From contig NZ_UOOB01000002.1 of assembly GCF_900564145.1 (NCBI RefSeq), positions 713,577 through 777,576 on the forward strand: 64,000 nt of DNA, written 5' to 3'. Both the position numbers and the translations under genes were made by a program. Below, one piece after another: positions 11,836 to 46,472 of this stretch. The stretch's first letter is position 1; the number at the start of each line of letters is the position of its first letter. The notes under the pieces were generated by a model. That model ran no database searches. It saw nothing but the letters and a program-made list of their open reading frames with translations, and had not been told where the DNA came from. The stretch is from Comamonas sp. lk (lineage in GTDB: Bacteria > Pseudomonadota > Gammaproteobacteria > Burkholderiales > Burkholderiaceae_C).

Positions 11836-14184
11836 ATGACAGTTTCCGCCCCCGCCCGCTGCCCCATAGATCACAGCCAGTTCACCCAGGCCACGGCCCA
11901 GAAAGGCCCGACCGGCTGCCCCATCAGCCACGGTGCGGCTGAGTTCAACCCTTTTGGCGATGCCTACCAGCAGGACCCGCCCGAATATGTGCGCTGGGCG
12001 CGCGAGCAGGAGCCGGTGTTCTTCAGCCCGCAGCTGGGCTACTGGGTGGTCGCCCGCTTTGAAGACATCAAGGCCATCTTCCGCGACAACCTCACCTTCA
12101 GCCCCTCGATTGCGCTGGAAAAAATCACGCCCACCGGCGATGAAGCCAATGCCGTGCTGGCCAGCTACGGCTTTGCATTGAACCGCACGCTGGTCAACGA
12201 GGACGAGCCCGCCCATATGCCGCGCCGCCGGGCGCTGATGGCGCCCTTCACCCCCGAAGAGCTCAAGCATCACGAACCCATGGTGCGCGAGCTGGCCCGC
12301 GAGTATGTGGACCGCTTCATCAACGACGGCCGAGCCGATCTGGTCGATCAAATGCTGTGGGAAGTGCCGCTGACGGTGGCCATGCACTTTCTGGGCGTGC
12401 CCAAGGACGATATGGACACGCTGCGCCAGTACAGCATTGCCCACACCGTCAACACCTGGGGTCGCCCCAAGCCCGAAGAGCAGGTGGCCGTGGCCCATGC
12501 CGTGGGCAATTTCTGGCAGTACGCCGGCAAGGTGCTGGACAAGATGCGCGCCGACCCCGAGGCGCCGGGCTGGATGCAATACGGCATACGCAAGCAGCGC
12601 GAGATGCCCGAGGTGGTGACCGACTCCTATCTGCACTCCATGATGATGGCCGGCATCGTCGCCGCACACGAAACCACGGCCAATGCCACGGCCAATGCCA
12701 TGAAGCTGCTGCTGCAGCACCCCAAGGTGTGGCACGAGATCTGCGCAGACCCTTCGCTGATCGCCAATGCCGTGGAGGAATGTCTGCGCCACAACGGCTC
12801 GGTCGCCGCCTGGCGACGCCTGGTCACCCAGGATGCCGTCATTGGCGGTCAAGCCATTCCTGCAGGCTCCAAGCTGCTGATCGTCACCTCCTCGGCCAAT
12901 CACGATGAACAGCATTTTGTGGACGCCGATTTCTTCGACATCCACCGCGACAATGCCAGCGACCATCTGACATTCGGCTATGGCTCGCACCAGTGCATGG
13001 GCAAGAATCTGGCGCGCATGGAAATGCAGATCTTCCTCGAAGAATTCACCCGTCGCCTGCCGCATATGCGCCTGTCCGAGCAGGAATTCAGCTATGTGCC
13101 CAACACCTCGTTTCGCGGCCCCGAGCATCTGTGGGTGCAGTGGGATGCGGCGCAGAATCCCGAGCGCAAAGACCCGGCCGTGCTGCAAGCGCAGCAAGCC
13201 GTGCGCATTGGCGAATCCTCGGGCAGCGTGAGCCGCTCCATGGTCGTCGCCAGCACCGAGCAGATTTCCCAGGGCGTGCTGCGCGTGCGTCTGAAGGCCC
13301 CCGACGGCCGCGATCTGCCGCGCTGGACGCCGGGCTCACATATCGATCTGCAATGCGGCGACACCGGCATCTCCCGCCAATACTCGCTCTGCGGCAGCCC
13401 AGACCAGCCCGACAGCTTTGAAGTCGCCGTGCTGCGCGAAGAGCACAGCCGCGGCGGCTCCGAATGGGTGCACACCCAGCTGCAGCCCGGCATGCGCGTG
13501 CAGATGCGCGGCCCGCGCAATCACTTCAAGCTCGATGAAAGCGCCGGGCATTTGATCCTGGTCGCCGGCGGCATAGGCATCACGCCGATTGCCAGCATGG
13601 CTGCGCGCGCCAAGGCCTTGGGAATTTCATATGAAATCCACTACAGCGGCAGCCAGCGTGCACGCATGGCGCTATTGAAATCATTGCAGGAGCTGCATGG
13701 TGATCGGCTGCATGTTTACGTGGGCGAAGAAGGCCGGCGCGCCGATTACCCCCGCCTGCTGGCCATCGCAAAAACCGGCGCCCAGATCTACGCCTGCGGC
13801 CCGCAGCGCATGCTGCAAGGCCTGGAACAAGCCAGCAGCCACTGGCCCGAAGACAGCCTGCGTGTGGAGCATTTTTCCTCCGCCCTGGGTGGACTCGATC
13901 CGGCCAAGGAGCACGGCTTTGAAGTGGAACTGCGCGAGTCCGGCATCACGCTGCAGGTGCGCAAGGACGAGACCCTGCTGGACGCTCTGCGCAGCGCCAA
14001 TATCGATGTGGAATGCGATTGCCGCGAAGGCCTGTGCGGTTCCTGCGAAGTCCCCGTGCTTGCCGGCGACATCGACCACCGCGACATGGTGCTGACCCGT
14101 TCGGAGCGCGCCGCCTGCACCAAGATGATGAGCTGCTGCTCGCGCGCCAGAACCGCCGAAAGCAAGATCGTCCTGGCCTTGTAA
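11836..14184 (+). CDS. Self-sufficient cytochrome P450, CYP116B type (heme - FMN/NAD reductase - 2Fe-2S fusion)
   Basis: The 782-residue polypeptide combines a P450 and its redox partner. The heme domain (about 1-445) shows the I-helix AGIVAAHETTANATANAM, the ExxR region EECLRHNGS and the heme-ligand loop FGYGSHQCMGKNLARME with Cys387. The reductase domain follows (RQYSLCGSPD for flavin, VAGGIGITPIASM for NAD(P)H), and the C-terminal plant-type 2Fe-2S ferredoxin has CDCREGLCGSC and a distal Cys in MMSCCSR. Order and length match CYP116B2 (P450RhF). The N-terminus holds two CPIxH motifs (CPIDH, CPISH). I chose ATG 11836 with GAGTGAG five bases upstream over a TTG at 11821. Its native substrate is unknown; family members hydroxylate varied aromatics and thiocarbamates. 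It follows the Bug gene and may share its regulator. Confidence 0.95.
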   Translation: MTVSAPARCPIDHSQFTQATAQKGPTGCPISHGAAEFNPFGDAYQQDPPEYVRWAREQEPVFFSPQLGYWVVARFEDIKAIFRDNLTFSPSIALEKITPTGDEANAVLASYGFALNRTLVNEDEPAHMPRRRALMAPFTPEELKHHEPMVRELAREYVDRFINDGRADLVDQMLWEVPLTVAMHFLGVPKDDMDTLRQYSIAHTVNTWGRPKPEEQVAVAHAVGNFWQYAGKVLDKMRADPEAPGWMQYGIRKQREMPEVVTDSYLHSMMMAGIVAAHETTANATANAMKLLLQHPKVWHEICADPSLIANAVEECLRHNGSVAAWRRLVTQDAVIGGQAIPAGSKLLIVTSSANHDEQHFVDADFFDIHRDNASDHLTFGYGSHQCMGKNLARMEMQIFLEEFTRRLPHMRLSEQEFSYVPNTSFRGPEHLWVQWDAAQNPERKDPAVLQAQQAVRIGESSGSVSRSMVVASTEQISQGVLRVRLKAPDGRDLPRWTPGSHIDLQCGDTGISRQYSLCGSPDQPDSFEVAVLREEHSRGGSEWVHTQLQPGMRVQMRGPRNHFKLDESAGHLILVAGGIGITPIASMAARAKALGISYEIHYSGSQRARMALLKSLQELHGDRLHVYVGEEGRRADYPRLLAIAKTGAQIYACGPQRMLQGLEQASSHWPEDSLRVEHFSSALGGLDPAKEHGFEVELRESGITLQVRKDETLLDALRSANIDVECDCREGLCGSCEVPVLAGDIDHRDMVLTRSERAACTKMMSCCSRARTAESKIVLAL

Positions 14185-14210: not shown

Positions 14211-15068
14211 CTACATGTTCCAGATTCTGGGAGTGCTGCCTTGCAGCCCCCAGAGTTCGGCGCGCCAATGTGCCCAGACCTGCTTCCAGACATTCATCAC
14301 CGGCTCCACCACCGGCGCCAGGCCGCGCAGCACCAGCATGTGTTCATTGGGCGCCGTCACACCAGCCACCACCGCTTGCCCTGCGCTTGATGCCGAGGTT
14401 TGCAGCAGCGCATGGGTACTCTCCAGAAGCATCTCGCGCAGCGGGCGCGAGATAGGCGAGCCGCTGGCAAACACCAGGCTGGCCATGCAGCGCCGCCCCG
14501 CCAGGCCCAGGGCCCCATCGAGCAGCAAGCCATCCTGGGCGTTGATCACGCCACGCTCCAGAAAACGGCCCGGCCATTCCAGGTGCTGGGTGAACTGGCC
14601 CTGTACATAAGGCTGGTCCGCCAAAGGCAGGCCCAAGGCCGTCACATCCCAGCTCAAAAGCTGTGCGCCTTCGGCCAGCTCGAACTCCAGATGATTGACG
14701 GCATCGCAGGCGTTATAGGCAATGGCTTCCAGCGGCAACCACTCCAGACGCGCGCCGGCGGCCAGTTTCAGACGCGTGCGTTGCAGCGCGGGCTTTCCAT
14801 TGCTTTTGTAAAAGCGCGTGGCACCAGGCGTGGTCACCAGGGCATGCGCGCCGGTGTCCACCTGCACGGCAATATCGAGCACATCGCCGCCGACCAGGCC
14901 GCCGGGCGGATGTACCAGCACGTTGTGGCAAATCTCCGAGCCTTCCGGATACAGGCTTTTGAGTACGCGCAGCGGACCATCGTGCGTGAAGTGCACCGAG
15001 GTTTTTCGTGCGCCCTCGGAAAGCGTTTGCGAGCTGTAATTCAGCGCAAGCTGCGCGTGCCAAGTCAT
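14211..15068 (-). CDS. ureD: Urease accessory protein UreD
   Basis: UreD (285 residues from the ATG at 15068) is part of the UreDFG complex that loads nickel into apo-urease. Recognisable segments are HDGPLRVLKSLYPEG, CHNVLVHPPGGLVGGD, TTPGATRFYKSNG, LEWLPLEAIAYNA and MASLVFASG. ATG 15086 and GTG 15110 are alternative starts; 15068 matches the MxWHA start common in related UreD proteins. The gene lies 11.6 kb from ureA and on the opposite strand, unlike the usual ureD-first operon, with a Bug/TauD pair and the urt operon in between. I see no sigma-54 site upstream, so its control may differ from the other ure genes. Confidence 0.95.
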   Translation of the reverse strand: MTWHAQLALNYSSQTLSEGARKTSVHFTHDGPLRVLKSLYPEGSEICHNVLVHPPGGLVGGDVLDIAVQVDTGAHALVTTPGATRFYKSNGKPALQRTRLKLAAGARLEWLPLEAIAYNACDAVNHLEFELAEGAQLLSWDVTALGLPLADQPYVQGQFTQHLEWPGRFLERGVINAQDGLLLDGALGLAGRRCMASLVFASGSPISRPLREMLLESTHALLQTSASSAGQAVVAGVTAPNEHMLVLRGLAPVVEPVMNVWKQVWAHWRAELWGLQGSTPRIWNM

Positions 15069-15290
15069 ATCCGTCTCATCCTTCATCGCCTCAGCTGCCT
15101 TGTTTTTCACAGCGGTTCAGCCTCATCCGACTCGCGTCGCTTGCGCAGAAACCGGTGCTGAAAACACCTCAGCTCTTTTGCTTGTTAACTCATAGAAAAA
15201 CGTTCGTTGTTGCAACGCAGCGCAGCTTCTACAGTCTCTCACATGCCATGCCGACCACGGCGCATGGCCCTTGATTTCAGGAGCTGTTTC

Positions 15291-16358
15291 ATGTCTGCCC
15301 AAGCGTTTGCACACCAGGCTTTTCACCCCAAGCGGCCGCGCTGGCTGGCCGTCATGGGTGTGGCTTGCTGCGCTCTGTTGGGCGGCATCGCATCGGCACA
15401 AAACAGCTCCGCAGCCGCGCCCGTCTGGAAGCCCAGCAAGTCGCCAGAATTCATTGTTCCCAGCGGTGCCGGTGCGGCGCTGGATGTGGCGGCACGCAAG
15501 CTCACCGAGCTGCTGGCCAGAGAAGGCCTGTCGCCCAGCTTTGTAGTCAGCAACAAGTCCGGCGCGCACTCCATCTCCGCACTGGAGAGCCTGCACCGCC
15601 ATGCCGGCGATGCGCATACGCTGATGACGCTCAGCAGCAGCTACGGCAACAGTCTTGCGCAAAATGCCCTGCCCGCCCATCTGCAAAAAGCGACGCCGCT
15701 GGTGACCTTGTTCAGAGAATTCACCACCGTGGTGGTGCGCGCGGATTCGCCGATCCGCAATGCGCAGGATCTGGTCGCCCAGCTGCGCCAGGACCCGGAG
15801 AAATACTCGATCGGCATTGCCACCACGCTGGGCAATCACATCCATCTTGGCGTGGCCCAACCGCTGCAGCAAGGCGGCGTCAATATCCAGAAGCTGCGCA
15901 TTGTTCCCTACAAGTCCTCGGCCGAATCCATGACGGCTCTGGTGGGCGGGCATTTGGATGTGGTGTCTGCCACCACACCCAATCTGCTGCCCTATCTGCA
16001 GGCAGGCCGGGTGCGCGTGCTGGCCATCGCCGCCGACCAGCGTCTGGAAGGCGCTTTCGCCCAGTCCCCCACATGGAAGGAGCAAGGCATCGACTATGTC
16101 AGCGATTCGTTTCAGGGCGTGATGACCACCCCCGCTGCCACCGCACAGCAGCAGACCTACTGGGTCGGCGCGCTGCGCCGCGTCTCCGAGACGCGCGAAT
16201 GGAAGGACTTTGTGGCACTCAACCAGTGGGAACCCATCTTCCTCGGCCCACAGGAAACGGCCAGCGCCTTGCATACCCAGGTTCAGCGCAACCATGCACT
16301 GCTTGCCGAGCTGGGCTTGCTGCCAGCCGCAGCCGTCCACATTGCCAAAGCCCGCTGA
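15291..16358 (+). CDS. Bug family (TctC-like) periplasmic binding protein
   Basis: The 355-residue protein has an N-terminal signal sequence (hydrophobic core LAVMGVACCALLGG, cleavage near ASAQ at about residue 40) and a Bug-type fold: FIVPSGAGAALDVAARKL, VVSNKSGAHSISALESL, IGIATTLGNHIHLG and VPYKSSAESMTALVGGHLD. The ATG at 15291 is preceded by CAGGAG (15278-15283). It lies 26 bp before a TauD-type dioxygenase gene and probably forms an operon with it, suggesting uptake and oxidative breakdown of the same organic acid, sulfonate or aryl-oxy acid. It is more divergent than the other two Bug proteins in the window. Confidence 0.85.
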   Translation: MSAQAFAHQAFHPKRPRWLAVMGVACCALLGGIASAQNSSAAAPVWKPSKSPEFIVPSGAGAALDVAARKLTELLAREGLSPSFVVSNKSGAHSISALESLHRHAGDAHTLMTLSSSYGNSLAQNALPAHLQKATPLVTLFREFTTVVVRADSPIRNAQDLVAQLRQDPEKYSIGIATTLGNHIHLGVAQPLQQGGVNIQKLRIVPYKSSAESMTALVGGHLDVVSATTPNLLPYLQAGRVRVLAIAADQRLEGAFAQSPTWKEQGIDYVSDSFQGVMTTPAATAQQQTYWVGALRRVSETREWKDFVALNQWEPIFLGPQETASALHTQVQRNHALLAELGLLPAAAVHIAKAR

Positions 16359-16384
16359 AGCGCGAGCATCGAAGAAAGCCTCTC

Positions 16385-17374
16385 ATGAACATGCCCTTGC
16401 CCCACGCCCCGTTGCAGCGTCTCGATGAACAGCTGCAGGCGGCCAACACGCTCACGCCCCACGTCAGAGTGGCTCCTCAATCGGCCCATATCGGCGCCTT
16501 GATCAGCGGTGTGGTGCTGGAACGCCCTCTCAGTGCGGCGGAGGTGCACACCGTGCGCTCGGCCCTGCTGCGCTGGAAAGTCGTGTTCTTTCGCGATCAG
16601 CATCTGACGCACGAACAGCATCTGGCCTTCTCGCGCCAGTTCGGTGAACTCACGCTGGGCCACCCCGTGTTTGGCCATGTGGACGGCCACCCCGAGCTGT
16701 ACTCGATTGCCAAGCACCGCAAGGCCAACCGCCACAGCGGCCAAGCAGAGCAGCGCCCGTGGACGGGCTGGCATGCCGATGTGACGGCGGCTCACAGCCC
16801 GCCTGCAGCCTCCATACTGCGCGGCGTCACCATCCCGCCCTATGGCGGCGACACCCAATGGACCAATCTGGCTGCGGCCTACAACGCGCTGTCTGCGTCG
16901 CTGCAGGCTTTTTTGCAGACTCTGCGCGGCGAGCACCGTTTCAGCGCGCCGCAAGGTGCGACGGCATCGGCCGAGTATCTGGAGCTGGTGCGCAACAACA
17001 CCCTGGTCAGCGAACATCCCCTGATCACCGTCCACCCCGAAACCGGCGAGAAAGTGCTCTACATCAGCCCCGGTTTTCTCAAAACCGTCAGCGGCCTGAA
17101 CACCCGCGAATCGCGCGTGCTGCTGGAGTTTCTGTGGGAGCACGCCGTCAGCAGCGAGTTCACGGTACGCTTCAAATGGGAGCCGGGCTCGCTGGCCTTC
17201 TGGGACAACCGCGCGACGGCACACGTGGCTCCGCAGGATATTTTTGCCCTGGAGTTTGACCGCCAGCTCTATCGCAGCACGCTGGTCGGCAAGATTCCCG
17301 TGGGGGCCGACGGCCGCGAATCCACGGCGATTCAGGGCGACCCGGTGCTGGCCGCACATGGCGCCGCGTACTGA
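16385..17374 (+). CDS. TauD/TfdA family Fe(II)/2-oxoglutarate dioxygenase
   Basis: The 329-residue enzyme couples 2-oxoglutarate decarboxylation to hydroxylation of a substrate. The metal triad is visible as His130-x-Asp132 (TGWHADVTAAHSPP) and distal His280 (DNRATAHVAPQD); the 2-oxoglutarate-binding Arg is probably in FDRQLYRSTL. The strand FFRDQHLTHEQHLAFSRQFGEL is typical. The family includes taurine, alkylsulfate and 2,4-D dioxygenases; the true substrate cannot be read from sequence. The start ATG at 16385 lies just after the preceding Bug gene, and a strong terminator follows. Confidence 0.92.
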   Translation: MNMPLPHAPLQRLDEQLQAANTLTPHVRVAPQSAHIGALISGVVLERPLSAAEVHTVRSALLRWKVVFFRDQHLTHEQHLAFSRQFGELTLGHPVFGHVDGHPELYSIAKHRKANRHSGQAEQRPWTGWHADVTAAHSPPAASILRGVTIPPYGGDTQWTNLAAAYNALSASLQAFLQTLRGEHRFSAPQGATASAEYLELVRNNTLVSEHPLITVHPETGEKVLYISPGFLKTVSGLNTRESRVLLEFLWEHAVSSEFTVRFKWEPGSLAFWDNRATAHVAPQDIFALEFDRQLYRSTLVGKIPVGADGRESTAIQGDPVLAAHGAAY

Positions 17375-22165: not shown

Positions 22166-23443
22166 TCAGGAGCTCTTGCCGTTGGGCTCGTCCTTCTTCT
22201 TGTCATTGCCTGCGATGAAGGGACTCCACGGCTGGGCCTTGACCGGGCCCTTGGTCTTCCACACCACGCTGAACTGGCCGTCGGCCTTGATCTCGCCCAC
22301 CATCACCGGCTTGTGCAGATGGTGGTTTTTCTCATCCATCTTCACGGTAAAGCCGTCGGGCGCAACAAAGGTCTGGCCGGCCATCGCGGCGATCACCTTG
22401 TCGGTGTCGGTGCTCTTGGCTTTTTCCACGGCCTGCTTCCACATATGGATGCCGACCCAGGTGGCTTCCATGGGGTCGTTGGTCAGGGGCTTGTCCTTGT
22501 GGCCAGCGATGTTCTTGGCCTTGGCATAGTCGCCCCACTGCTTGATGAAAGCCGTGTTGGTGGGGTTCTTCACGCTCATGAAATAGTTCCATGCCGCCAG
22601 GTGGCCGACCAGGGGCTTGGTATCCACGCCGCGCAGCTCTTCCTCGCCCACGCTGAAGGCCACCACCGGTACATCTTTGGCCTTGAGGCCGGCATTGCCC
22701 AGCTCTTTGTAGAAGGGCACGTTGGAGTCGCCATTGATGGTGGAAATCACCGCCGTCTTGCCGCCGGTGGAGAACTTCTTCACATCGGCCACGATGGTCT
22801 GGTAATCGCTGTGACCGAAGGGCGTATAGGTTTCCATGATGTCGGAATCCTTCACGCCCTTGGACTTGAGGAAGGCACGCAAAATCTTGTTGGTGGTGCG
22901 CGGGTACACATAGTCGGTACCCAGCAGCACAAAGCGCTTGGCGCCACCGCCCTCCTTGCTCATCAGATATTCAACGGCTGGAATGGCTTGCTGGTTGGGC
23001 GCAGCGCCGGTGTAGAACACATTCTTGGAGAGTTCCTCACCCTCGTACTGCACGGGGTAGAACAGCAGGCCGTTGTTCTGCTCGAACACCGGCAGCACCG
23101 ACTTGCGCGAGACGCTGGTCCAGCAGCCAAAGACCACGGCCACCTTGTCCTGCGTGATCAGCTGCTTGGCCTTCTCTGCAAACAGCGGCCAGTTGGAGGC
23201 GGGATCGACCACCACGGCTTCCAGCTTCTTGCCCAGCACGCCGCCTTTGGCGTTGATGTCCTCAATCGCCATCAGCACCGTGTCCTTGAGCACCGTCTCC
23301 GAGATCGCCATGGTTCCGGAGAGGCTGTGCAGCACGCCGACCTTGATGGTGTCGGCAGCCTGGGCGCTCAAGCCCGTCAGACCCAGACCGGCGACGGCTG
23401 CGGCGGCAGCCAAAGTTTTCATGGCAGTTCTACGCTTGAACAT
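22166..23443 (-). CDS. urtA: Urea ABC transporter substrate-binding protein UrtA
   Basis: UrtA (425 residues) is the periplasmic urea-binding subunit. It has a signal peptide with cleavage near LSAQAA-DTIKV. It then shows the family-specific VGVLHSLSGTMAISE, VVVDPASNWPLFAEKA, VFGCWTSVSRKSVLPVFE and LFYPVQYEGEE motifs, which separate UrtA from LivK. The ATG at 23443 has AAGGGG upstream; an ATG at 23464 is less likely. It is the first gene of urtABCDE, and a sigma-54-type promoter lies 75 bp upstream. Confidence 0.96.
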   Translation of the reverse strand: MFKRRTAMKTLAAAAAVAGLGLTGLSAQAADTIKVGVLHSLSGTMAISETVLKDTVLMAIEDINAKGGVLGKKLEAVVVDPASNWPLFAEKAKQLITQDKVAVVFGCWTSVSRKSVLPVFEQNNGLLFYPVQYEGEELSKNVFYTGAAPNQQAIPAVEYLMSKEGGGAKRFVLLGTDYVYPRTTNKILRAFLKSKGVKDSDIMETYTPFGHSDYQTIVADVKKFSTGGKTAVISTINGDSNVPFYKELGNAGLKAKDVPVVAFSVGEEELRGVDTKPLVGHLAAWNYFMSVKNPTNTAFIKQWGDYAKAKNIAGHKDKPLTNDPMEATWVGIHMWKQAVEKAKSTDTDKVIAAMAGQTFVAPDGFTVKMDEKNHHLHKPVMVGEIKADGQFSVVWKTKGPVKAQPWSPFIAGNDKKKDEPNGKSS

Positions 23444-23518
23444 GGTGATCAACCCCTTGTGCATCAGTGATTCGGATGGGTTACGGCAAGCAGAGGGCTT
23501 GTCGTATGCAATGCACTT

Positions 23519-23534
23519 AGCAAGAGGTGTGCCA
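23519..23534 (-). promoter_or_regulatory. Sigma-54 promoter of urtABCDE
   Basis: The minus strand reads TGGCACACCTCTTGCT, matching TGGCAC-N5-TTGCW at all conserved positions including the -24 GG and -12 GC. The predicted start is near 23508, giving a 65-base leader to urtA. Confidence 0.8.
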
Positions 23535-23662: not shown

Positions 23663-24394
23663 TCAATGCACCGTAAAGCGCAGCAAATATTCGTAGCTGC
23701 GTTGCGTGGTCCTCACATCGCCCTGGATGGGCTCGCGCCATATGGCTTGCAAGCTGTTGTTGCCCCGGGTCGGCGTCATCTGGGCTTTGCCCTGGACATC
23801 GGTAAAGGTGGGCGATCCATGTTCGCCCCAGCTCACACGAACGCCGGCCTTGGGCTTTCCATGCAGCAACACTTGCACCTGAAACGGCTGCCCCGCATGT
23901 GGCGACCGGCCTTGCAAAGGCACGATTTCAAAATCCTGGGCCAACGGCTTTTGTAGCACCGCCCCCCACTGCACCACGGTCTTGTGGAACTTGCGCGCAT
24001 GCACGCCACGCACAGCGCCGGGGTTCTTGTCCATGGACAAAGGCAGCATGTCGCCCTCGGGCTTGGCACTGCTGAAATAACCGTTGTCCAGCTCCACCGC
24101 AATCAGGGCGGTCTTGGCATCGGGTTTGACGCGAATCCCGCCACGCACGCTCTGCACATCGCAGCTCACCTCGCGCCCACGCAGGTCATAGGCATGCACG
24201 CGCTGCAGCTTGGCGGGGTCGAAGGTTTCGGTCTTGCCCTCATGGCCGCCAAACTGCATGACGTAGCCGCCCTGGGCATCGGGCTCCAGCCAGACGTTAT
24301 GGGCATATACCGGATTGGCACAGAGCAGCCAGGCCGTAGCGGTCGTGCAGAGAATGCGCGCAATCCCGCTTTTACGGGTTGATGGCTGAGACAT
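23663..24394 (-). CDS. DUF4198 domain periplasmic protein, probable nickel-uptake partner
   Basis: The 243-residue protein has a signal peptide ending NPVYA, then HNVWLEPDAQGGYVMQFGG, the typical start of DUF4198 (NikM-related) proteins, and a C-terminal Ig-like carrier domain. Its first mature residue is His. DUF4198 proteins are commonly encoded with nickel or cobalt transport systems and TonB receptors. A start at 24394 has GGAG five bases upstream; an ATG at 24412 overlaps the TonB gene stop. With the TonB receptor it probably forms a two-gene operon moving Ni(II) or a chelate toward the inner-membrane permease. The nickel role is inference from family and context. Confidence 0.8.
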   Translation of the reverse strand: MSQPSTRKSGIARILCTTATAWLLCANPVYAHNVWLEPDAQGGYVMQFGGHEGKTETFDPAKLQRVHAYDLRGREVSCDVQSVRGGIRVKPDAKTALIAVELDNGYFSSAKPEGDMLPLSMDKNPGAVRGVHARKFHKTVVQWGAVLQKPLAQDFEIVPLQGRSPHAGQPFQVQVLLHGKPKAGVRVSWGEHGSPTFTDVQGKAQMTPTRGNNSLQAIWREPIQGDVRTTQRSYEYLLRFTVH

Positions 24395-24408: not shown

Positions 24409-26472
24409 TCATAGTGAAAACTGCAAACCCAGCTGCAGGCTGCGCGGTGCACCGGGTGCCACCAGACGCTGACCGCCGATGATGGTGGTGGTGCTGGCGT
24501 ATTGGGCGTTGGCCGCATTGCGCAGCCACAGGTTCAGACTGGCATTGCGGGCCACACTGACAGGCAGGCGGTATTGCAGACCCAGATCCAGCCAGTGATA
24601 GCTGCTGGCCCATTCGGTATTCGCCCCATTGATGGGGGCCCGGCCCACATGGCGCAGCACGCCATGCACGGTGACATCGGGACTGGGCATCCAGCGCGCA
24701 TGCAGGGTGCTGGTGGACTGCGGCACGCTCACCACGCGCTGGCCCAGCAAAGCGGCATCGGCGTTGTGCGTGACTTTGGAACGGTTGAAGCCATAGGCCC
24801 ATTCCACATGCCAGGCACGACTGGGCAGCCAGTGCAGCTGCAGCTCGGCGCCCTTGCGCACCGTGGCACCCAGGTTTTCATATTCACCGGGCGCGGTGTT
24901 GCGAATCTCGTTGCTGGACGTGATGCGGTACAGCGCTGCGTCAATCAGCCACTGTCCCGACGGCTTCCACTGCACGCCCAGCTCGGTCTGGCGAAAGACA
25001 TTGGCACTCAGCTCGCTGTTGCGCAGCGCGTATTTGGCAAAGTCGCTGGCCAGGGCAAAGCCCTGCGACCAGCTGGCACGTATCGCTGTCTGCGGATTGA
25101 GCTGCGCCAGCGCGCCCAGCTTGGGACTGGCGTGGCTGCGGCCCTGCATGCGGCTGCATTCATCGCTGCCGGTCTCTGTCCCCAGCAGGCGGCAGCTGCC
25201 GTCAAAATGATCCCAGCGCAGCGCGGCCGTGGTCTGCAGCCAGCCTGTCGCCTGCCAGCTGCCTTGTCCGTACAGCGCCGTGTTGTTCAGCCGCGTATTG
25301 CGATCGTCCAACGCAGCAGCCGTGCGCTGGCGGTTCACCAAGCCATCCCAGTAGCCGTAGTCAGTCGACTCGCGCACCTGCTCCAGCCCCAGCATCCAGT
25401 TCAATTCGCGCGCGGCCAGCTGGCTTTTGCCATTCAAATTCAGGCCCGCGCCCAGCACGCTGCGCTCATAACGCTCCTCGCGCTGCATCCAGGTGGCGCT
25501 GCGCGGGCGGGTGAACCAGCGCACAAAGTCCTGCTGCGTGCCGTAGACAAAACCCAGTAGTCGCATGTCTGCATCCAGCGCGTACTGCGCGTCCAGCCGC
25601 AGCGTGCCAAAGTGCTTGTTGGCGCCATCGCCGACCACATGCGCGTCCTTGCCCTGCCGATCCTGCCGCCACTGCGCCTCGGTCAGATAACCGGGCGAAT
25701 CCCCGCGCGCCTCATGCCAGCGACCGGACAGAGAAATGTCCAGCTTTTCATGCACCTGGTGCTTCCAGTGACCGCTGAGGGTGCTGCGCTCAAAGCCCGA
25801 GCTGGGCCGCCCCCCATCGCCGCGCGAATGCTGGGCCGCCAGGTTGAGCTGATCGCCGCCCTGCAGTTCACGCCCCAGCGCGGCCTGCGTATCCAGCAGG
25901 CCGTGCGAGCCGGCGCTGAGTTCCAGATCGGCATAGCTGCCGCTGCGACGCGTGCGCAGCTCCACCAGCCCGGCGCGGTTGTAATTGCCCTGCAGCACCG
26001 ATACCGGGCCGCGATAGACATTGATCTTGTCCAGCTCCAGCGGTACCACCACATTCAGATCGAAGTAGCCATCGGCATGTGAAGTGGCTTCATTAAGAGG
26101 AATTCCATCCAGCGTGGCGGCCACATCGCCACCATGACCACCGCCGCCAAAGCCGCGCAGCACCAGCCCATTGGCCACGCCGCTCAGGTGATAGTGGTTC
26201 ACATGCATGCCGGGCACCTTGTTCCATAGCGTCTCGACTTCCGGCCTTGGCTGCTCGCGCAATTCGTCGCGCCCCAACTCGGTCACCGAAAAGGCAGGCT
26301 GCACGGCATCCAGCACCTGGCCCTTGACCTGCACCTCGGCCAGACGGACCTCTGCCTGCTGTGCCCGCAGATGGCCATGCATCAGCGAAAAACAGGCCAT
26401 GGCCAGCGCTGCATACCGGGGTGAAGCAGCCTTGCGCTGCGCATTGTTCGTTGGAATCCTTTGGGTTCTCAT
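24409..26472 (-). CDS. TonB-dependent outer-membrane receptor, probable nickel receptor
   Basis: From ATG 26472 the protein has 687 residues, with a basic N-terminus and hydrophobic core (AALAMACFSLMHGH) acting as signal peptide. The plug domain follows (VTELGRDELREQPRPEVETLW, LVLRGFGGGGHGGDVAATLD, INVYRGPVSVLQGNYN), then a 22-strand barrel ending in Phe-Ser-Leu. The plug is unusually His/Gly rich (HVNHYHLSG, GGGGHGG, EATSHADGYFD), consistent with binding a soft or borderline metal such as nickel. It is divergent from ureA and upstream of DUF4198. A sigma-54 motif would start transcription almost at the ATG (near 26473), so either the mRNA is nearly leaderless or a later start is used. Substrate is inference. 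Confidence 0.85.
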   Translation of the reverse strand: MRTQRIPTNNAQRKAASPRYAALAMACFSLMHGHLRAQQAEVRLAEVQVKGQVLDAVQPAFSVTELGRDELREQPRPEVETLWNKVPGMHVNHYHLSGVANGLVLRGFGGGGHGGDVAATLDGIPLNEATSHADGYFDLNVVVPLELDKINVYRGPVSVLQGNYNRAGLVELRTRRSGSYADLELSAGSHGLLDTQAALGRELQGGDQLNLAAQHSRGDGGRPSSGFERSTLSGHWKHQVHEKLDISLSGRWHEARGDSPGYLTEAQWRQDRQGKDAHVVGDGANKHFGTLRLDAQYALDADMRLLGFVYGTQQDFVRWFTRPRSATWMQREERYERSVLGAGLNLNGKSQLAARELNWMLGLEQVRESTDYGYWDGLVNRQRTAAALDDRNTRLNNTALYGQGSWQATGWLQTTAALRWDHFDGSCRLLGTETGSDECSRMQGRSHASPKLGALAQLNPQTAIRASWSQGFALASDFAKYALRNSELSANVFRQTELGVQWKPSGQWLIDAALYRITSSNEIRNTAPGEYENLGATVRKGAELQLHWLPSRAWHVEWAYGFNRSKVTHNADAALLGQRVVSVPQSTSTLHARWMPSPDVTVHGVLRHVGRAPINGANTEWASSYHWLDLGLQYRLPVSVARNASLNLWLRNAANAQYASTTTIIGGQRLVAPGAPRSLQLGLQFSL

Positions 26473-26483
26473 GCCACTGCAAA

Positions 26484-26499
26484 CGCAAGCTTTGTGCCA
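26484..26499 (-). promoter_or_regulatory. Sigma-54 promoter motif facing the TonB receptor gene
   Basis: The minus strand reads TGGCACAAAGCTTGCG, matching TGGCAC-N5-TTGC. Only the base after GC departs from the W preference. The predicted start is near 26473, one base before the annotated ATG. Confidence 0.7.
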
Positions 26500-26536
26500 C
26501 GCAATGCACCGATTCAGCTCGTACCCCGCAGAAAAA

Positions 26537-26574
26537 CGCACCGAGACTGCGCACACTGAAAAGTTTTGGTGCAC
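26537..26574. promoter_or_regulatory. Candidate NtrC sites between the divergent TonB and ureA promoters
   Basis: CGCACC-GAGAC-TGCGCA (26537-26553) is an imperfect match to TGCACC-N5-GGTGCA, and TTTTGGTGCAC (26564-26574) is an intact half-site. They lie about 70-100 bp from the predicted TonB start and 105-140 bp from the predicted ureA start, so one enhancer could serve both. Confidence 0.45.
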
Positions 26575-26651
26575 AAACACGCCAAACCGCCCCAATGCAG
26601 TGCAAGTACCGAGCCTTGTGACCCCGAAACAGCTGCGCCAACGCACCGCTT

Positions 26652-26667
26652 TGGCATAGCACTTGCT
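26652..26667 (+). promoter_or_regulatory. Sigma-54 promoter of the ureA operon
   Basis: TGGCATAGCACTTGCT matches TGGCAY-N5-TTGCW. The predicted start is near 26678, giving a 77-base leader before ureA. Confidence 0.78.
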
Positions 26668-26754: not shown

Positions 26755-27057
26755 ATGGAATTGACGCCTCGCGAAAAAGACAAGCTGCTGATCTTCACCG
26801 CTGCCCTGCTGGCCGAGCGCCGCATGGCGCGCGGTCTCAAGCTCAACTACCCCGAGGCCGTGGCCCTGATCAGCGCCTATGTGATGGAGGGAGCCCGCGA
26901 CGGCAAGACCGTGGCCCAGCTGATGAGCGAGGGCCGCACCGTCCTCACGCGCGGCGATGTGATGGACGGCATTGCCGAGATGATTCCCGACATACAGATC
27001 GAGGCGACCTTTCCCGATGGCACCAAGCTCGTCACCGTGCACGAGCCGATTGCCTGA
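26755..27057 (+). CDS. ureA: Urease gamma subunit UreA
   Basis: UreA (100 residues) is the standard-length gamma subunit of the three-subunit bacterial urease. It starts [19 protein letters not shown] and contains [13 protein letters not shown] and VQLMSEG-like/[11 protein letters not shown] segments, ending in VTVHEPI. It is first in ureA-hupE-ureB-ureC-GNAT-ureE-ureF-ureG and is preceded by a sigma-54 promoter. The ribosome binding site is weak. Confidence 0.97.
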
Positions 27058-27109: not shown

Positions 27110-27132
27110 AAGCGCAGAAAGCTATGAAATTC
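27110..27132 (+). repeat. Dispersed repeat copy that contains the hupE start codon
   Basis: Reads AAGCGC, AGAA, AGCTATG, AAATTC. The ATG within the repeat is the chosen start codon of the HupE/UreJ gene. Confidence 0.6.
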
Positions 27133-27732
27133 AAGAACATCATTCTCTCTACGGCCACCGCTGCAGCGGCTCTTCCCCTGTCCGCCATGGCCCATGTGGG
27201 CGCCGATGGCGGCGGTCACCACCATTTTCTCGACAGCTTCAGCCACGCCCTGGCCCACCCGTTTACCGGCGCCGATCACCTGGCAGCCATGCTGGCCGTG
27301 GGTGCCTGGAGCGCGCTGACGGTCACTCCGGCCTGGCGCGCACCACTCGCTTTTGTGGCGCTGTTGGTAGCCGGTGCGCTGGCAGGCTTCGCCGGCCTCT
27401 GGGTGCCCGGCGTGGAACCCATGATTGCCGCCTCAGTTCTGGTGCTGGGGCTGCTGCTTGCGGTGCAGAAAAAAATGGCCTGGGGTGCGGCCGCGGGGCT
27501 GGCGGGCATGTTTGCCTTCTTCCATGGTGCGGCCCATGGCTATGAGCTGGCAGCAGATACCGGCATGGCGGCCGTGGGTGCGCTGGCAGGCATGGCGCTT
27601 GGATCGGCGCTGCTGCATGTCTGCGGCATGGTGCTGGGTCAGGCCCTGCTGCAGCGCCACCGGTGGTTGGCCAGCCTGGGCGGCGCAGCCACGGCGGCAT
27701 TGGGCGTCTTCATGCTGACGCGCCTGGCCTGA
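27124..27732 (+). CDS. ureJ: HupE/UreJ family nickel permease
   Basis: The 202-residue inner-membrane protein has a signal sequence (AAAALPLSAMA) followed by His-rich AHVGADGGGHHHF, the HPFTGADHLAAMLAVG motif that defines HupE/UreJ, and about six transmembrane segments. Members are secondary nickel or cobalt permeases. It sits between ureA and ureB, a position typical of ureJ in Burkholderiales. The open frame begins at 27058 directly after the ureA stop, but the signal peptide points to ATG 27124, which lies in a repeat copy. Confidence 0.92.
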   Translation: MKFKNIILSTATAAAALPLSAMAHVGADGGGHHHFLDSFSHALAHPFTGADHLAAMLAVGAWSALTVTPAWRAPLAFVALLVAGALAGFAGLWVPGVEPMIAASVLVLGLLLAVQKKMAWGAAAGLAGMFAFFHGAAHGYELAADTGMAAVGALAGMALGSALLHVCGMVLGQALLQRHRWLASLGGAATAALGVFMLTRLA

Positions 27733-27747: not shown

Positions 27748-28053
27748 ATGATCCCCGGAGAATATTTGCTGGATGACGGCGCGCACGAACTCAACTCCGG
27801 CCGCCGCACGCTCACCCTGGTGGTGCAGAACACCAGCGACCGACCGATTCAGGTCGGCTCGCACTACCACTTTGCCGAGACCAATGCGGGCCTGCAATTC
27901 GATCGTGCGCAAGCCCACGGCATGCGCCTGAATATTGCCAGCGGCATGGCCGTGCGTTTCGAGCCCGGCCAGCAACGTACCGTCGAGCTGGTAGACCTGG
28001 CCGGCGACAGAAAAATCTACGGCTTTCGCGGCCTGGTGATGGGAGATTTGTAA
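27748..28053 (+). CDS. ureB: Urease beta subunit UreB
   Basis: UreB (101 residues) is the standard beta subunit: [37 protein letters not shown], then [13 protein letters not shown]. The ribosome binding site AAAGGAG is seven bases from ATG. Its stop overlaps the ureC start (TAATG). Confidence 0.97.
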
Positions 28054-29771
28054 TGGCCACCATGGACCGACGTGCCTATGCCGAAACCTTTGGCCCCACG
28101 GTGGGCGACCGCGTGCGCCTGGCCGACACGGATCTGATCATTGAAGTGGAAAAAGACTTCACCCTGGCCGCCGGCGGCTACGGCGAAGAGGTGAAATTTG
28201 GCGGCGGCAAAACCATACGCGACGGCATGGCGCAAAGCCAGCGCAGCCGCGAACAAGGCGCCATGGACACGGTGCTGACCAATGCGCTGATCATCGACCA
28301 CTGGGGCATAGTCAAGGCCGATATCGGCTTGAAAGACGGGCGCATTGCGGCCATAGGCAAGGCCGGCAATCCCGACACCCAGCCCGGCGTGGACATCATC
28401 ATCGGCCCCGGCACCGAAATCATCAGCTGCGAAGGCAAGCTGGTCACGGCCGGCGGCATCGATACCCATATCCACTTCATCGCTCCGCAGCAGATCGAAG
28501 AGGCGCTGACCAGCGGGGTGACCACCATGATTGGCGGCGGCACGGGTCCTGCCACCGGCACCTTTGCCACCACCTGCACGCCCGGCCCCTGGAATATGGA
28601 GCGCATGCTGCAGGCAGCCGATGCCTTCCCCATGAATCTCGGCTTTCTGGGCAAGGGCAATGCCAGCCTGCCGCAAGGCCTGCATGAGCAGATCAGCGCC
28701 GGCGCGATTGGTTTGAAACTGCACGAGGACTGGGGCAGCACGCCGGCCGCCATAGACAACTGCCTGACGGTGGCTGAAGAGACCGATACCCAGGTGGCGA
28801 TTCACACCGACACGCTCAACGAATCCGGCTTTGTGGAAGACACGGTGGCCGCCTTCAAAGGGCGCACCATCCACACCTTCCACACCGAAGGCGCGGGCGG
28901 CGGCCATGCGCCCGACATCTTGAAAGTGGTGGGCGAAGCCAATGTCCTGCCCTCGTCCACCAACCCCACCCGACCCTACACCATCAACACGCTGGACGAG
29001 CATGTGGACATGCTCATGGTCTGCCACCACCTGAATGCCGGCATTGCCGAAGATCTGGCTTTTGCCGAAAGCCGCATCCGCAAGGAAACGATTGCGGCCG
29101 AGGACATACTGCACGACATCGGCGCCATCAGCATGTTCAGCTCCGACAGCCAGGCCATGGGCCGCGTGGGCGAAGTGATTTTGCGCACCTGGCAGACGGC
29201 GCACAAGATGAAGCAGCAACGCGGCCAACTGACGGGAGACAGCGAGCGCCACGACAACTTCCGTATCAAGCGCTATATCGCCAAATACACCATCAATCCT
29301 GCGATTGCCCACGGAATCAGCCACGAGGTGGGCAGCCTGGAAGTGGGCAAATGGGCCGATATCGTGATCTGGAAACCGGCCTTCTTTGGCGTCAAACCCA
29401 CCTGCATCTTGAAAGGCGGCTTCATCGCCATGGCGGCCATGGGCGACCCGAACGCCTCCATTCCCACGCCCCAGCCCGTGCATTACCGTCCCATGTTTGG
29501 CGCCTATGGCGGGGCCCTGGCCAGGACCTCGCTGACCTTTGTCTCGCAGGCCGGCTTGGCTGCGGGCATAGGTCAGCGTTTCGGCCTGCAAAAGCCGCTA
29601 TCTGCCGTCAAAGGCATACGCGGTGTGCAAAAGCAGCACATGATTCACAATGACCTGGCACCGCATATGGAGGTAGATGCCCAGACCTATGCCGTGCGCG
29701 CCAACGGCGATTTGCTGACCTGCGAGCCTGCCCACAGCCTGCCCATGGCCCAGCGCTACTTTCTGTTCTGA
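28053..29771 (+). CDS. ureC: Urease alpha subunit UreC
   Basis: UreC (572 residues) is the catalytic subunit with the dinuclear nickel centre that hydrolyses urea to ammonia and carbamate. Visible are the metal ligands HIHF ([14 protein letters not shown]), the carbamylated Lys222 in [12 protein letters not shown], the [10 protein letters not shown] and [15 protein letters not shown] ligands, the flap [10 protein letters not shown] with the mobile Cys-His pair, and [14 protein letters not shown] with the Asp ligand. Length is full, with no truncation. Confidence 0.98.
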
Positions 29772-30886: not shown

Positions 30887-31414
30887 ATGCTGACTGCCAA
30901 CAAACTATTGCCTCAAGGCCAGGGACTGTCTGCCGTGCTGCTCAAGCGCGCGGCCACCATAGAGCTGGACTGGGACGTGCGCCAGAAAAGCCGCTTCGCC
31001 GCCAACGACAGCCTGGGCCGCGCACTGGCGATTTTTCTGCCGCGCGGCCAGGCCGTGCGCGGCGGTGATGTACTGGTGGCCGAAGACGGCTCGCTGATCC
31101 GCGTGATCGCCGCACCGCAAAAAGTGCTGCAGATCACGGCCTGCAAAGAGCATGGCTCGCCCTTCGATCTGATGCGCGCCGCCTACCATCTGGGCAACCG
31201 CCATGTGCCCATCGAGCTGCAGCCCGATCACCTGAAGATTGAACCCGATCATGTGCTGGCCGACATGTTGCGCAGCATGCATATGACGGTGATCGAAACC
31301 GATCTGCCGTTCGAGCCCGAAGGCGGCGCCTATGGCGGCCATGTGACCAATGACGGCCACAGCCACCATCACCACAGCCATGCCCACGGCCACGACTGCG
31401 GCCATGCACACTGA
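30887..31414 (+). CDS. ureE: Urease accessory protein UreE (nickel metallochaperone)
   Basis: UreE (175 residues) binds nickel and delivers it to the UreDFG-urease complex. It has the N-terminal peptide-binding domain, the conserved [13 protein letters not shown] with the Ni-binding His, and a long C-terminal His tail ([18 protein letters not shown]) of about 20 residues that can store several metal ions. The ATG at 30887 follows an unproductive upstream extension. Its end overlaps ureF by 11 bp. Confidence 0.96.
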
Positions 31415-32123
31415 CGCTGCAGCCGGGCTGACGCCGCACAGCTTTCTGCAGCTGATGTGGCTGGCTTCGCCCGCGCTGCCGATTGGCGGATTTTCTTACT
31501 CCGAAGTGCTTGAAGCGGCCATCAATGCTGCGCTGGTTACTACCGAAAAAGAAGCATCCACCTGGCTGCTGCAGCAGCTGCATCTGGCGCAGTCGCGCAG
31601 CGACATGGCGGCCATTGCCCAGGCGCTACCGGCCTGGCAAAACCGGGACCTGGCGCGGGTGGAACAGCTCAACGACTGGGTGCTCAGCACCCGAGAGACC
31701 AGCGAGCTGCGCTTGCAGACCGAGCAAATGGGCAAATCGCTGAGCGACTGGCTGCGCAACCAGCATGCGGCCGATGCCGAACGCAGTGCGCAGATCGGCC
31801 AGCTGGCCGCGCTCTCGCAGCGAACGCCAAGCTATCCCATCGCTTTTGCACTGGCGGCGACCTATGCCCAGGCACCCGTACAAGAAGCGCTGCTGGCCTA
31901 TGCTTTTGGCTGGGCCGAAAACATGGTGCAGGCCGCCATCAAGGCCGTGCCGCTGGGCCAGAACGCAGGCCAGCGCATTCTGGCGCAACTGGCCCAGGAA
32001 ATTCCCGCCGCCGTGGCGCATGCGCAGTCTCTGACCGACAGCACACGCCAGGCTTTCTCGCCCATGCTGGCCATACTTTCGGCCCAGCATGAACACCAGT
32101 ATTCACGCCTGTTTAGATCATGA
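31404..32123 (+). CDS. ureF: Urease accessory protein UreF
   Basis: UreF (239 residues) bridges UreD and UreG in the activation complex. Features are [47 protein letters not shown] C-terminal helices and [10 protein letters not shown], the most conserved UreF block. The start at 31404 overlaps ureE; the longer frame from 31350 runs through the ureE His tail and is unlikely. Its stop overlaps the ureG start (ATGA). Confidence 0.96.
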
Positions 32124-32785
32124 GCACTTCCGCACTGCACCATATCCCCAACCGCAGCAAACAGCTGCCACCGCTGCGCGTGGGCATAGGCGGCCCCGTG
32201 GGCTCGGGCAAGACCACCATTCTTGAAATGCTGTGCAAGGCCATGCGCGACAAATGGGACTTGATCGCCATCACCAACGACATCTACACCAAGGAGGACC
32301 AGCGCCTGCTCACCGTCAGCGGCGCCCTGCCTGCCGAACGCATCATGGGCGTGGAGACCGGCGGCTGCCCGCACACCGCCATCCGCGAAGATGCTTCCAT
32401 CAATCTGGAAGCCATCGACCGCATGCTGGGCCAGTTCCCCGATGCCGATATCGTGTTCATCGAATCGGGCGGCGACAACCTGGCCGCGACCTTCAGCCCG
32501 GAGCTGTCGGACCTGACGATTTACGTGATCGATGTGGCGGCCGGCGAGAAAATCCCGCGCAAGGGCGGCCCCGGCATCACCAAGAGCGATCTGTTCGTCA
32601 TCAACAAGACCGATCTGGCTCCTTATGTGGGCGCCAATCTGGACATCATGCGCAGCGACACCGTGCGCATGCGCACCACGGCCAAGGGACTCAAGCCCTT
32701 TGTGATGACCAACCTCAAGACCCTGGACGGCCTGGACGAAGTAGTGGCATTCATCGAATCCCAGGGCCTGCTGGCAGCGCGCTAA
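32120..32785 (+). CDS. ureG: Urease accessory GTPase UreG
   Basis: UreG (221 residues) is a SIMIBI-class GTPase powering nickel insertion. It shows the P-loop [10 protein letters not shown], the [17 protein letters not shown] segment with the metal-binding [18 protein letters not shown] and the guanine-specificity motif NKTDLAP. It is the last gene of the ure operon. The only hairpin after it works best on the opposite strand. Confidence 0.97.
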
Positions 32786-44776: not shown

Positions 44777-46375
44777 TTACAGCGCCTTGCGCAACGTGGT
44801 GGTGGGGATCTTCAGCTGCTCGCGATACTTGGCCACGGTGCGACGGGCGCATTCAATGCCTTGCTCCTTGAGCATATCGGCCAGCTTGGCGTCCGACAGC
44901 GGTTTTTTCGTGTCTTCCGCATCCACAAACTGCTTGATCAGCGCCCGCACAGCCGTGCTGGAGGCGCTGCCGCCGGTCTCGGTGCCCAGGCCCGAGCCGA
45001 AGAAGTACTTGAGCTCGAACGTGCCTTGGGGCGTGGCCATGTACTTAGCCGTGGTTACGCGGCTGATGGTGGATTCATGCAGGCCCAGGGCATCGGCAAT
45101 ATCGCGCAGCACCAGCGGGCGCATGGCCAGCTCGCCATGCACAAAGAAGTTTTTCTGCCGCTCCACAATCGCTTCCGACACCCGCAAGATGGTGTCAAAG
45201 CGCTGCTGGATGTTCTTGATAAACCAGCGCGCTTCCTGCAGCCGCTGCTGCAGTGCCGCATGGCCTTCGCTGTTCTTGTGGCGGCGCAGCACGCCGGCAT
45301 AAATGTCATGCACCTTGAGCCGCGGCATGACTTCGGTGTTGAGGCGAACGGAAAACTCCATCCGGCCCGAGCCGACACGCACCGGGCGCACGATGACATC
45401 GGGCACCACGATATGGCGCTCCACATCCACGAAGCGGCGGCCGGGTCGCGGCTCCAGCCGCGCAATCAGGGCCAGGGCCTCGCGCAAAGCTTCCTCGCGC
45501 GCGCCGCACAGGCTGGAGAGCTTGCGCATATCGCGTCGCGCCAGCAAGTCCATGGGCTGGCAGCACATGGACAGGGCCAGTTGCAGCACATCCCAGTGCT
45601 TTGCTGTCGTGCCCTCATCTTCGGCCAGACGAATCAGATCGCGCAGCTGCAGTTGCAGGCATTCGGCCAGATCGCGTGCACCCACGCCCACGGGCTCCAG
45701 GCTTTGCAGCAACTTTAGCGCCATGGCAAAGCGCTGCTCCAGCTCTTCGCGCTCTTCCAGGTCGTCACCGGCCAGGCTGTAGGCCAGATCGGCCAGAGGC
45801 TCTTCCAGATAACCGTCGTCGTTCAGCGATTCGATCAGAAAGCGCAGCGCCGCGCAGTCCTCGGCACTCAGGCGCAGGCTGAGCGCCTGGCGGTGCAGAA
45901 AATCGCTCAGGCTTTCATGCTCGCGCGCCAGATCGATGGCGTCGGTTTCCTCGTCGCCATCGCTTTTGCGGCTGCCGGACGAGGAGGGGCCATCCCATTC
46001 GCTGCTGGATTCGCCCCCCCATTCCCCGTCTTGTCCGTCGGCACCGTCGCCGCTCCAGTCCAGCGTCTCGGGGGTTTCGGTGGTCGGCGTTTCCGCTATG
46101 GTTTCAGAAGCTGCTTGTGTTGATGAATATTCAGTTTCAGATGAGTAGCCATCTGAAGTGCCCATGGATTCGGCGGCAGCCGCTTCCATAGAAGGAGCGT
46201 CCATCGGCGCATCGACGTCGTCGCCGTCGCGCTCCAGAAACGGGTTGTCCACCAGCATCTGTTCGACTTCCTGCGCCAGCTCCAGCGTGGACAGTTGCAG
46301 CAACTGAATCGACTGCTGCAGCTGCGGCGTGAGCGACAGATGCTGGGATACGCGTAAGGACAGGCCCGGCTTCAT
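44777..46375 (-). CDS. rpoN: RNA polymerase sigma-54 factor RpoN
   Basis: Sigma-54 (532 residues) recognises -24/-12 promoters and needs an AAA+ activator such as NtrC. Region I is the Gln/Leu-rich N-terminus (LSLRVSQHLSLTPQLQQSIQ). Region II is an acidic Ser/Glu-rich linker of about 100 residues. Region III holds the core-binding part, the ESTISRVTTAKYMATPQG helix-turn-helix and the C-terminal RpoN box ARRTVAKYRE. The ATG at 46375 gives the usual N-terminus. Its neighbours lptA-lptB upstream match the common lpt-rpoN order. Three matching promoters lie in the nitrogen region of the window. Confidence 0.97.
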   Translation of the reverse strand: MKPGLSLRVSQHLSLTPQLQQSIQLLQLSTLELAQEVEQMLVDNPFLERDGDDVDAPMDAPSMEAAAAESMGTSDGYSSETEYSSTQAASETIAETPTTETPETLDWSGDGADGQDGEWGGESSSEWDGPSSSGSRKSDGDEETDAIDLAREHESLSDFLHRQALSLRLSAEDCAALRFLIESLNDDGYLEEPLADLAYSLAGDDLEEREELEQRFAMALKLLQSLEPVGVGARDLAECLQLQLRDLIRLAEDEGTTAKHWDVLQLALSMCCQPMDLLARRDMRKLSSLCGAREEALREALALIARLEPRPGRRFVDVERHIVVPDVIVRPVRVGSGRMEFSVRLNTEVMPRLKVHDIYAGVLRRHKNSEGHAALQQRLQEARWFIKNIQQRFDTILRVSEAIVERQKNFFVHGELAMRPLVLRDIADALGLHESTISRVTTAKYMATPQGTFELKYFFGSGLGTETGGSASSTAVRALIKQFVDAEDTKKPLSDAKLADMLKEQGIECARRTVAKYREQLKIPTTTLRKAL

Positions 46376-46472
46376 CAACTGAACATCCTTGATGTGCAAG
46401 CGACCCCGGCATGCCCCCGATGCAGGGACAGCAGCCACAGGAAACGGGGGAGCGCGGTGGTCAACTCACGCA

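Follow-up and report, generated by a model that had tools for sequence, protein, structure and literature searches.

The uptake of a metal is commonly portrayed as a response to that metal, and regulons of urea and urease genes under the control of NtrC and sigma-54 are known. The stretch of Comamonas DNA analysed here (the window, 64 kb in length) raises the question of whether an outer-membrane metal importer may answer to nitrogen: a gene for a TonB-dependent receptor and a gene for a DUF4198 periplasmic protein lie among its urea and urease genes, and an earlier note on this DNA had read the two as a nitrogen-regulated route of nickel uptake for urease. We examined the gene identities, the neighbourhoods of related receptors and the conservation of the candidate control sites; G000 denotes the genome of the window, and G- and L-numbers denote the genomes and loci of the survey, respectively.

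The receptor and DUF4198 genes lie between urea import and urease

Family models identified the receptor, the DUF4198 protein, UrtA, UreA and HupE, and the remaining urt and ure genes were assigned by eye (Table 1). With urtA and ureA as its flanks, the receptor-DUF4198 pair lies between urtA-E and ureA-hupE-ureBC, as the earlier note had said, and sigma-54-type sites precede urtA, the receptor gene and ureA. The interval proposed for the pair, 24409..26667, contains the receptor gene, but the DUF4198 gene is found just outside it, downstream of the receptor. The DUF4198 frame offers an ATG at 24412 that overlaps the receptor stop and a second one at 24394; the latter is preceded by GGAG and is thus the likelier start. 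The nearest named relatives of both proteins are from Comamonas, and a search of genome contigs with the receptor returned one locus.

Pointing away from the receptor, the gene order is ureA, hupE/ureJ, ureB, ureC, a GNAT gene and, further on, ureE, ureF and ureG. The PF04955 gene sits between ureA and ureB as the HupE/UreJ permease does in urease clusters, whereas here it is joined by an outer-membrane receptor; with HupE in this position, one locus would encode the outer-membrane, periplasmic, inner-membrane and loading steps for nickel.

Several further genes occupy the surroundings. Between urtE and ureD (15240-17374) the opposite strand carries a TctC-type binding protein gene and a gene judged TauD-like by eye; ureD directly follows urtE in loci L040, L042 and L050. 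A 787-aa protein encoded at 11821-14184 appears by eye to be a cytochrome P450 fused to a reductase and a ferredoxin domain. A gamma-glutamylcyclotransferase-like gene (PF06094; 30255-30881) runs antiparallel to the urease genes between ureC and ureE, and 9 of the 11 urease-linked relatives with a long enough contig retain it at this place (not L042 and L050).

Table 1. Genes and predicted control sites of the locus, in window coordinates.
Feature	Position	Strand	Basis
TonB-dependent receptor of the outer membrane (687 aa); would import Ni(II) or a Ni chelate	24409..26472	-	Pfam plug + barrel
DUF4198 / NikK-like periplasmic nickel-binding protein (predicted)	23663..24394	-	PF10670
urtA, urea ABC transporter binding protein	22166..23464	-	TIGR03407, 601 bits
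urtB-E	after urtA, down to 17453	-	by eye
ureD	14211..15110	-	by eye
ureA	26755..27057	+	family model, 173.7 bits
hupE/ureJ, for a member of an inner-membrane nickel permease family	27124..27732	+	PF04955, 144.1 bits
ureB, ureC	27748..29771	+	by eye; ureC homologues searched
ureE, ureF, ureG (nickel loading of urease)	30887..32785	+	by eye
rpoN (sigma-54)	44777..46438	-	219 bits, inside window
Sigma-54-type promoter of receptor, TGGCACAAAGCTTGCG	26484..26499	-	exact-pattern match + conservation
Sigma-54-type promoter of ureA, TGGCATAGCACTTGCT	26652..26667	+	consensus score + conservation
Sigma-54-type promoter of urtA, TGGCACACCTCTTGCT	23519..23534	-	exact-pattern match + conservation
Degenerate NtrC-like palindrome, 9/12	26588..26604	.	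offset in gap close to that of the perfect site of L040

The receptor fold is generic and its periplasmic partner points to nickel

The receptor matched the Pfam barrel and plug models (119.7 and 48.3 bits, respectively), which identifies it as a TonB-dependent transporter (TBDT). Eleven NCBIfam models of siderophore, heme, B12 or PqqU receptors also matched, all of them below cut-off; the siderophore receptor model TIGR01783 gave 132.1 bits against a curated cut-off of 223.5, and the B12 receptor model TIGR01779 gave 37 against 599.7. The predicted structure is that of an ordinary TBDT, for which Foldseek and VIA-align ranked PqqU, FecA, BtuB, FhuA and others closely, so that the fold does not indicate a ligand. 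The plug had been described as rich in His and Gly; this applies only to a Gly-rich loop with one His (GGGGHGGD; His113), residues 51-175 having five His in all. His113 and His132 are invariant among 46 aligned receptors.

The partner protein matched PF10670 with 59.4 bits (cut-off 34), placing it in the DUF4198 family, and aligned with the solved protein 9gcb (1.9e-26), with its His38 and His57 falling on His1 and His18 of that chain; of 104 homologues found, 37 were aligned, and both residues are invariant among them. Maturation is predicted to leave His38 (in the 249-aa reading) as the first residue, a cleavage position deduced from the sequence and the start of the crystal chain. According to the account of this structure in PMC12537917, 9GCB is IsDUF4198, a nickel-binding protein with a Kd of 18 nM and His1 and His18 as ligands, and DUF4198 genes have TonB receptors and NikR_C among their neighbours. 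The nickel association of the family claimed in the earlier note thus has a measured binder behind it, and the nickel role of such a receptor-DUF4198 pair is, given these findings, largely prior knowledge; TBDTs for nickel include FrpB4, as described in PMC11247825.

Two more DUF4198 paralogues are encoded in the genome (L037:9564-10508 and L038:8753-9469), each adjoining another TBDT gene, one together with ApbE- and flavodoxin-like genes and the other with an unassigned gene (by eye). No sign of nickel was seen by eye beside either of them, so that a DUF4198 gene alone is no proof of nickel. A search for one other class of nickel enzyme, [NiFe] hydrogenase, found none in 53 genomes of the genus.

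Related receptors accompany either urease or NikR

To place the pair in its wider context, we mapped related receptors in the genus, family and order. A receptor match (E<=1e-30) was found in 24 of 53 genus genomes, of which 13 hold a urease-linked copy (U-type, 71-100% identity) and 11 a copy linked to NikR (N-type, 47-60% identity), including two genomes with both (G049 and G050); G028 has broken receptor pieces beside ureC on a short contig (L027 and L032), and G030 a distant homologue only. All 13 U-type receptors are divergent to ureA and are followed by a DUF4198 gene. This holds also for five loci with no urt gene within the 20 kb fetched; the contig of L046, at 7 kb, does not extend far enough for urt to be seen. 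All 11 N-type receptors directly follow a NikR gene, and a DUF4198 gene comes after the receptor in nine of these loci (not L056 and L057). The strong NikR genes of the 53 genomes (at least 102 bits) likewise number 11, each adjoining an N-type receptor; two weak matches (58 bits) both come from genomes without the receptor, and a search of the window's own genome with PF08753 gave no match.

Urease was found in 42 of the 53 genomes. The receptor occurs in 23 of these 42 and in none of the other 11 (Fisher P=0.0012, ignoring kinship, with the broken copy of G028 counted, the distant copy of G030 left out and some of the 11 being incomplete genomes); as the loci are related, such counts are not independent. 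The receptor is dispensable, since 28 of the 42 urease-bearing genomes (29 if the broken copy of G028 is taken as none) have no urease-linked receptor. Separately, two genomes carry a DUF4198 gene divergent to ureA with no receptor gene (G046, L116:4532-4817; G029, L127:4821-5206) and preceded by a sigma-54-like site of the receptor type, so that DUF4198 can stay with urease alone.

Across the family, 21 of 397 genomes matched the receptor at E<=1e-100, yielding 18 new loci, in all of which a DUF4198 gene adjoins (27-67% identity). One of them is U-type (L062), five have NikR (L065, L066, L071, L075 and L079), seven have a HupE-like gene nearby (L063, L064, L067, L068, L069, L076 and L077), and five have neither NikR, ure, HupE nor a NikR operator (L070, L072, L073, L074 and L078). 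In L075 (4702-14109) the NikR, receptor and DUF4198 genes lie inside the urease cluster itself, between ureC and ureE. Within the order, 8 of 399 genomes matched at E<=1e-80, four of them new; a NikR-type operator precedes the receptor in L099 and L101, and in L100 and L102 no NikR, ure or HupE gene and no such operator was seen. The neighbourhood comparison that had been suggested as a check was therefore favourable, with a ure, NikR or HupE-like gene near the receptor in 37 of 42 mapped loci (24/24 in the genus and 13/18 in the family), and siderophore or B12 genes, the neighbours that would have spoken for another substrate, were not recognised by eye in four of the five other family loci (L070, L073, L074 and L078).

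These neighbourhoods bear on the possibility that the pair is controlled as proposed and carries another cargo, such as cobalt, zinc or a broad metal chelate (metallophore), its link to urease being one of shared regulation only. Such a reading draws on the generic receptor fold, the sub-threshold matches to siderophore, heme, B12 or PqqU models and the two paralogues beside other TBDTs; zinc and cobalt also stabilise a DUF4198 protein, but nickel was the strongest stabiliser in the assay given in PMC12537917. Against it stand NikR and its operator in relatives, together with the HupE-like or ure neighbours, and we regard another cargo as unlikely. Nickel is well supported, by comparison of the genes and their surroundings, as what would link the receptor and DUF4198.

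A tree of 46 receptors united all 14 U-type rows in one clade (100/100) nested in a group (100/100) whose other five rows are all N-type; N-type rows occur elsewhere in the tree as well, and the root is the midpoint. The pieces from G028 (L027 and L032) and the distant homologues L028, L031, L033 and L034 were left out of the tree and of the promoter counts below. Most simply, the urease-linked setting would be the younger of the two, although the tree has only a midpoint as its root. As the U-type receptors form one clade among NikR-linked ones, a nickel receptor has probably exchanged nickel control for nitrogen control; relatives that often stand behind NikR and a genome of the window in which NikR found no match likewise make the nitrogen link look like a change of regulator.

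Sigma-54-type sites are conserved between receptor and ureA

The exact pattern TGGCACN5TTGC has two matches in the 64 kb, both on the minus strand and immediately before urtA (23520-23534) and the receptor gene (26485-26499), against 0.48 expected; two or more were reached in 7 of 100 shuffles, and with one mismatch allowed there were 12 matches for 12.5 expected. The count in the window alone is thus not significant, and conservation carries the argument. We compared 14 receptor-ureA gaps (the window, 12 genus relatives and L062) with dinucleotide shuffles. Sites scoring at least 10/11 on the sigma-54 consensus were directed towards ureA in all 14 gaps (shuffles 0.44) and, with the exception of L062 (score 9), towards the receptor as well (13 of 14; shuffles 0.43). 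The receptor's own site in the window scores 10/11 and has the form of a -24/-12 promoter, and the urtA site scores 11 in the window and 10-11/11 in the six relatives tested. It is their placement and their conservation in 14/14 related gaps that set these sites beyond chance. A ureA site of 10 or 11 was also present in 19 of 20 urease loci without the receptor (raw scores, without shuffle control; the 20 are drawn from the 28 genus genomes that have urease but no receptor linked to it, G028 being outside the 28), which indicates that the receptor probably joined a urease already under nitrogen control.

NtrC-like palindromes of at least 10/12 were found in 13 of the 14 gaps (shuffles 0.83), all in relatives. 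The window's site is a degenerate one of 9/12; further sites of 9/12 start at 26537, 26557 and 23629, and nothing above 9/12 was found at the receptor, ureA and urtA genes of the window. In the genome as a whole, NtrC-like sites that deviate at one position or none are over-represented (46 places compared with 4 for the reversed pattern), and none of the 46 falls in the window's receptor-ureA gap. The genome encodes RpoN and NtrC (668 bits), the latter being the one gene over the cut-off of a model with six matches above 260 bits. In the window, transcription from the sigma-54-type receptor promoter is predicted to start at the receptor ATG, and the first in-frame ATG lies 0 or 1 base after the start predicted from the -12 element in 12 of the 14 gaps, so that the receptor message may be nearly leaderless.

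The degenerate NtrC-like site raises the alternative that the protein is a nickel receptor free of nitrogen control in this strain, its sigma-54-like sites being remnants and its expression constitutive or dependent on another activator; sigma-54 promoters do serve many activators, and the NtrC model has its six strong matches here. Against it, the site scores 10/11 in the window and 9-11 in all 14 U-type gaps, with the ureA and urtA sites preserved likewise, and we consider this alternative improbable. Nitrogen control of the receptor is supported by the conserved sigma-54-type sites and by the NtrC-like sites of the relatives, both of them predicted, and together with the NikR linkage of relatives they favour the proposed coupling of nitrogen limitation to nickel supply.

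Three family loci in whose mapped surroundings neither NikR nor ure appears (L070, L072 and L074) have an NtrC-like site of 11/12 (counted by eye) before a sigma-54-like core, and may hold nickel receptors that answer to nitrogen without a link to urease.

A sigma-54-like core lies within most NikR operators of relatives

The palindrome GTATGA-N15-TCATAC (0-1 mismatch) precedes 15 of 16 NikR-linked receptors; the operator search covered 15 of the 16 genomes, and L079, which has none, was assigned from a separate upstream inspection. No such operator was found at the U-type receptors of G000, G022, G041, G011, G049 and G050. With no NikR match in the genome and no operator at the gene, the window's receptor does not belong to the NikR-regulated receptors, to which it is nevertheless kin.

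Fifteen of 17 operators (the 15 plus those of L099 and L101; the exceptions are L053 and L101) enclose GG-N10-GC at sigma-54 spacing, although these N-type cores reach only 8-9/11 on the full consensus, a score often attained by shuffled gaps. In 12 distinct N-type operators (L099 and L101 are outside these counts), the TTGC at the -12 place of the left half carries 2.0, 2.0, 1.59 and 2.0 bits, compared with 1.0, 1.19, 0.45 and 0.27 bits for the corresponding bases of the right half. Equal constraint on the two sides would be expected of a palindrome read by a repressor; here the left TTGC is near-invariant and its mirror is not, which we read as the mark of an ancestral promoter. Between the U-type core of L041, TGGCATGAAGCTTGCT, and the most frequent N-type core, TGGTATGAAGTTTGCT or CGGTATGAAGTTTGCT, there are 2 or 3 differences, and the core of L116, TGGTATGAAGCTTGCT, now before DUF4198, is in between the two types. 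That the relatives' operators mostly enclose such a core suggests one shared promoter, and a single ancestral promoter, with or without a NikR operator overlaid, is the boldest and least secure of our conclusions.

In a more specific form, the receptor promoter may have had two inputs: with its GG-N10-GC core in the left half of the NikR operator, it would need an activator such as NtrC and would be blocked by nickel-loaded NikR, and the urease-linked lineage would then have lost NikR and the operator, leaving a nitrogen-only, feed-forward supply of the cofactor. We put this forward tentatively, as something that could well be otherwise. NtrC-like sites of at least 10/12 were found upstream of 5 of 16 NikR-type operators (shuffles 0.62) and sites of at least 9/12 upstream of 8 of 16 (shuffles 4.0), a result that is suggestive but not general; the low scores of the N-type cores and the presence of NtrC-like sites before only 5 of 16 count against two inputs. 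We also considered that the N-type core is an extended -10 element of the sigma-70 type (TGnTATGAA), for which the TG is present in 8 of the 17 operators.

A proposed nitrogen-controlled nickel supply line for urease

Taken together, the receptor and DUF4198 are likely to form the outer section of a route that supplies urease with nickel and is turned on when nitrogen is limiting. Phosphorylated NtrC and RpoN would then fire three promoters together, those of urtA (urea import), of ureA-hupE-ureBC (hydrolysis) and of the receptor-DUF4198 operon back to back with ureA. The receptor would bring Ni(II) or a nickel chelate across the outer membrane with TonB energy, DUF4198 would catch the nickel in the periplasm through its N-terminal His and His57, HupE/UreJ would carry it inward, and UreE and UreG would load urease. 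The lineage is kin to NikR-linked receptors that carry a NikR operator; NikR and the operator are absent here, and the gene would have joined the nitrogen response. This model builds on gene order and its conservation, the DUF4198 ligands, the conservation of the sigma-54-type sites, the NikR linkage and operators in relatives, and the clade; from these we infer the substrate, NtrC binding, induction and the direction of change. Import of a nitrogen-containing nutrient (for example, an organic nitrogen compound) rather than a metal would suit the position between urea transport and urease and the sigma-54 sites, but is very improbable with relatives that follow NikR in genomes whose urease lies elsewhere and with conserved nickel ligands in DUF4198.

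Among the NikR-linked nickel TBDTs, the N-type relatives belong to the same receptor family as the receptor of the window (47-60% identity in the genus) and share with it the DUF4198 partner (9/11) and a similar promoter core, whereas the latter has no NikR match and no operator, stands beside urease and appears to be under sigma-54/NtrC-type control. The DUF4198 protein shares with IsDUF4198 (9GCB) the aligned, invariant N-terminal His and second His ligand, and both have a TonB receptor as a neighbour; PMC12537917 reports NikR_C as a further neighbour, and its main text holds the word 'urease' once, within the name HupE/UreJ, while the DUF4198 gene here lies beside urease with sigma-54-type sites. 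With the known NtrC/sigma-54 urea and urease regulons the locus shares its sigma-54 sites before urtA and ureA, but here the regulon appears to include the outer-membrane importer of the cofactor. Nickel receptors and DUF4198 are already known and the nitrogen-controlled version, as predicted from these comparisons, is new; a limited literature search found no report of a nitrogen-controlled nickel receptor, which does not prove that none exists.

The importer of a cofactor appears here to answer to the nutrient whose enzyme needs that cofactor, a feed-forward design. If true, this would show how a metal transporter changes its regulator and would explain how urease is fed with nickel at low nickel in strains without NikR. 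It would also provide a natural pair of lineages, NikR-linked and urease-linked, within one genus, two genomes of which hold both.
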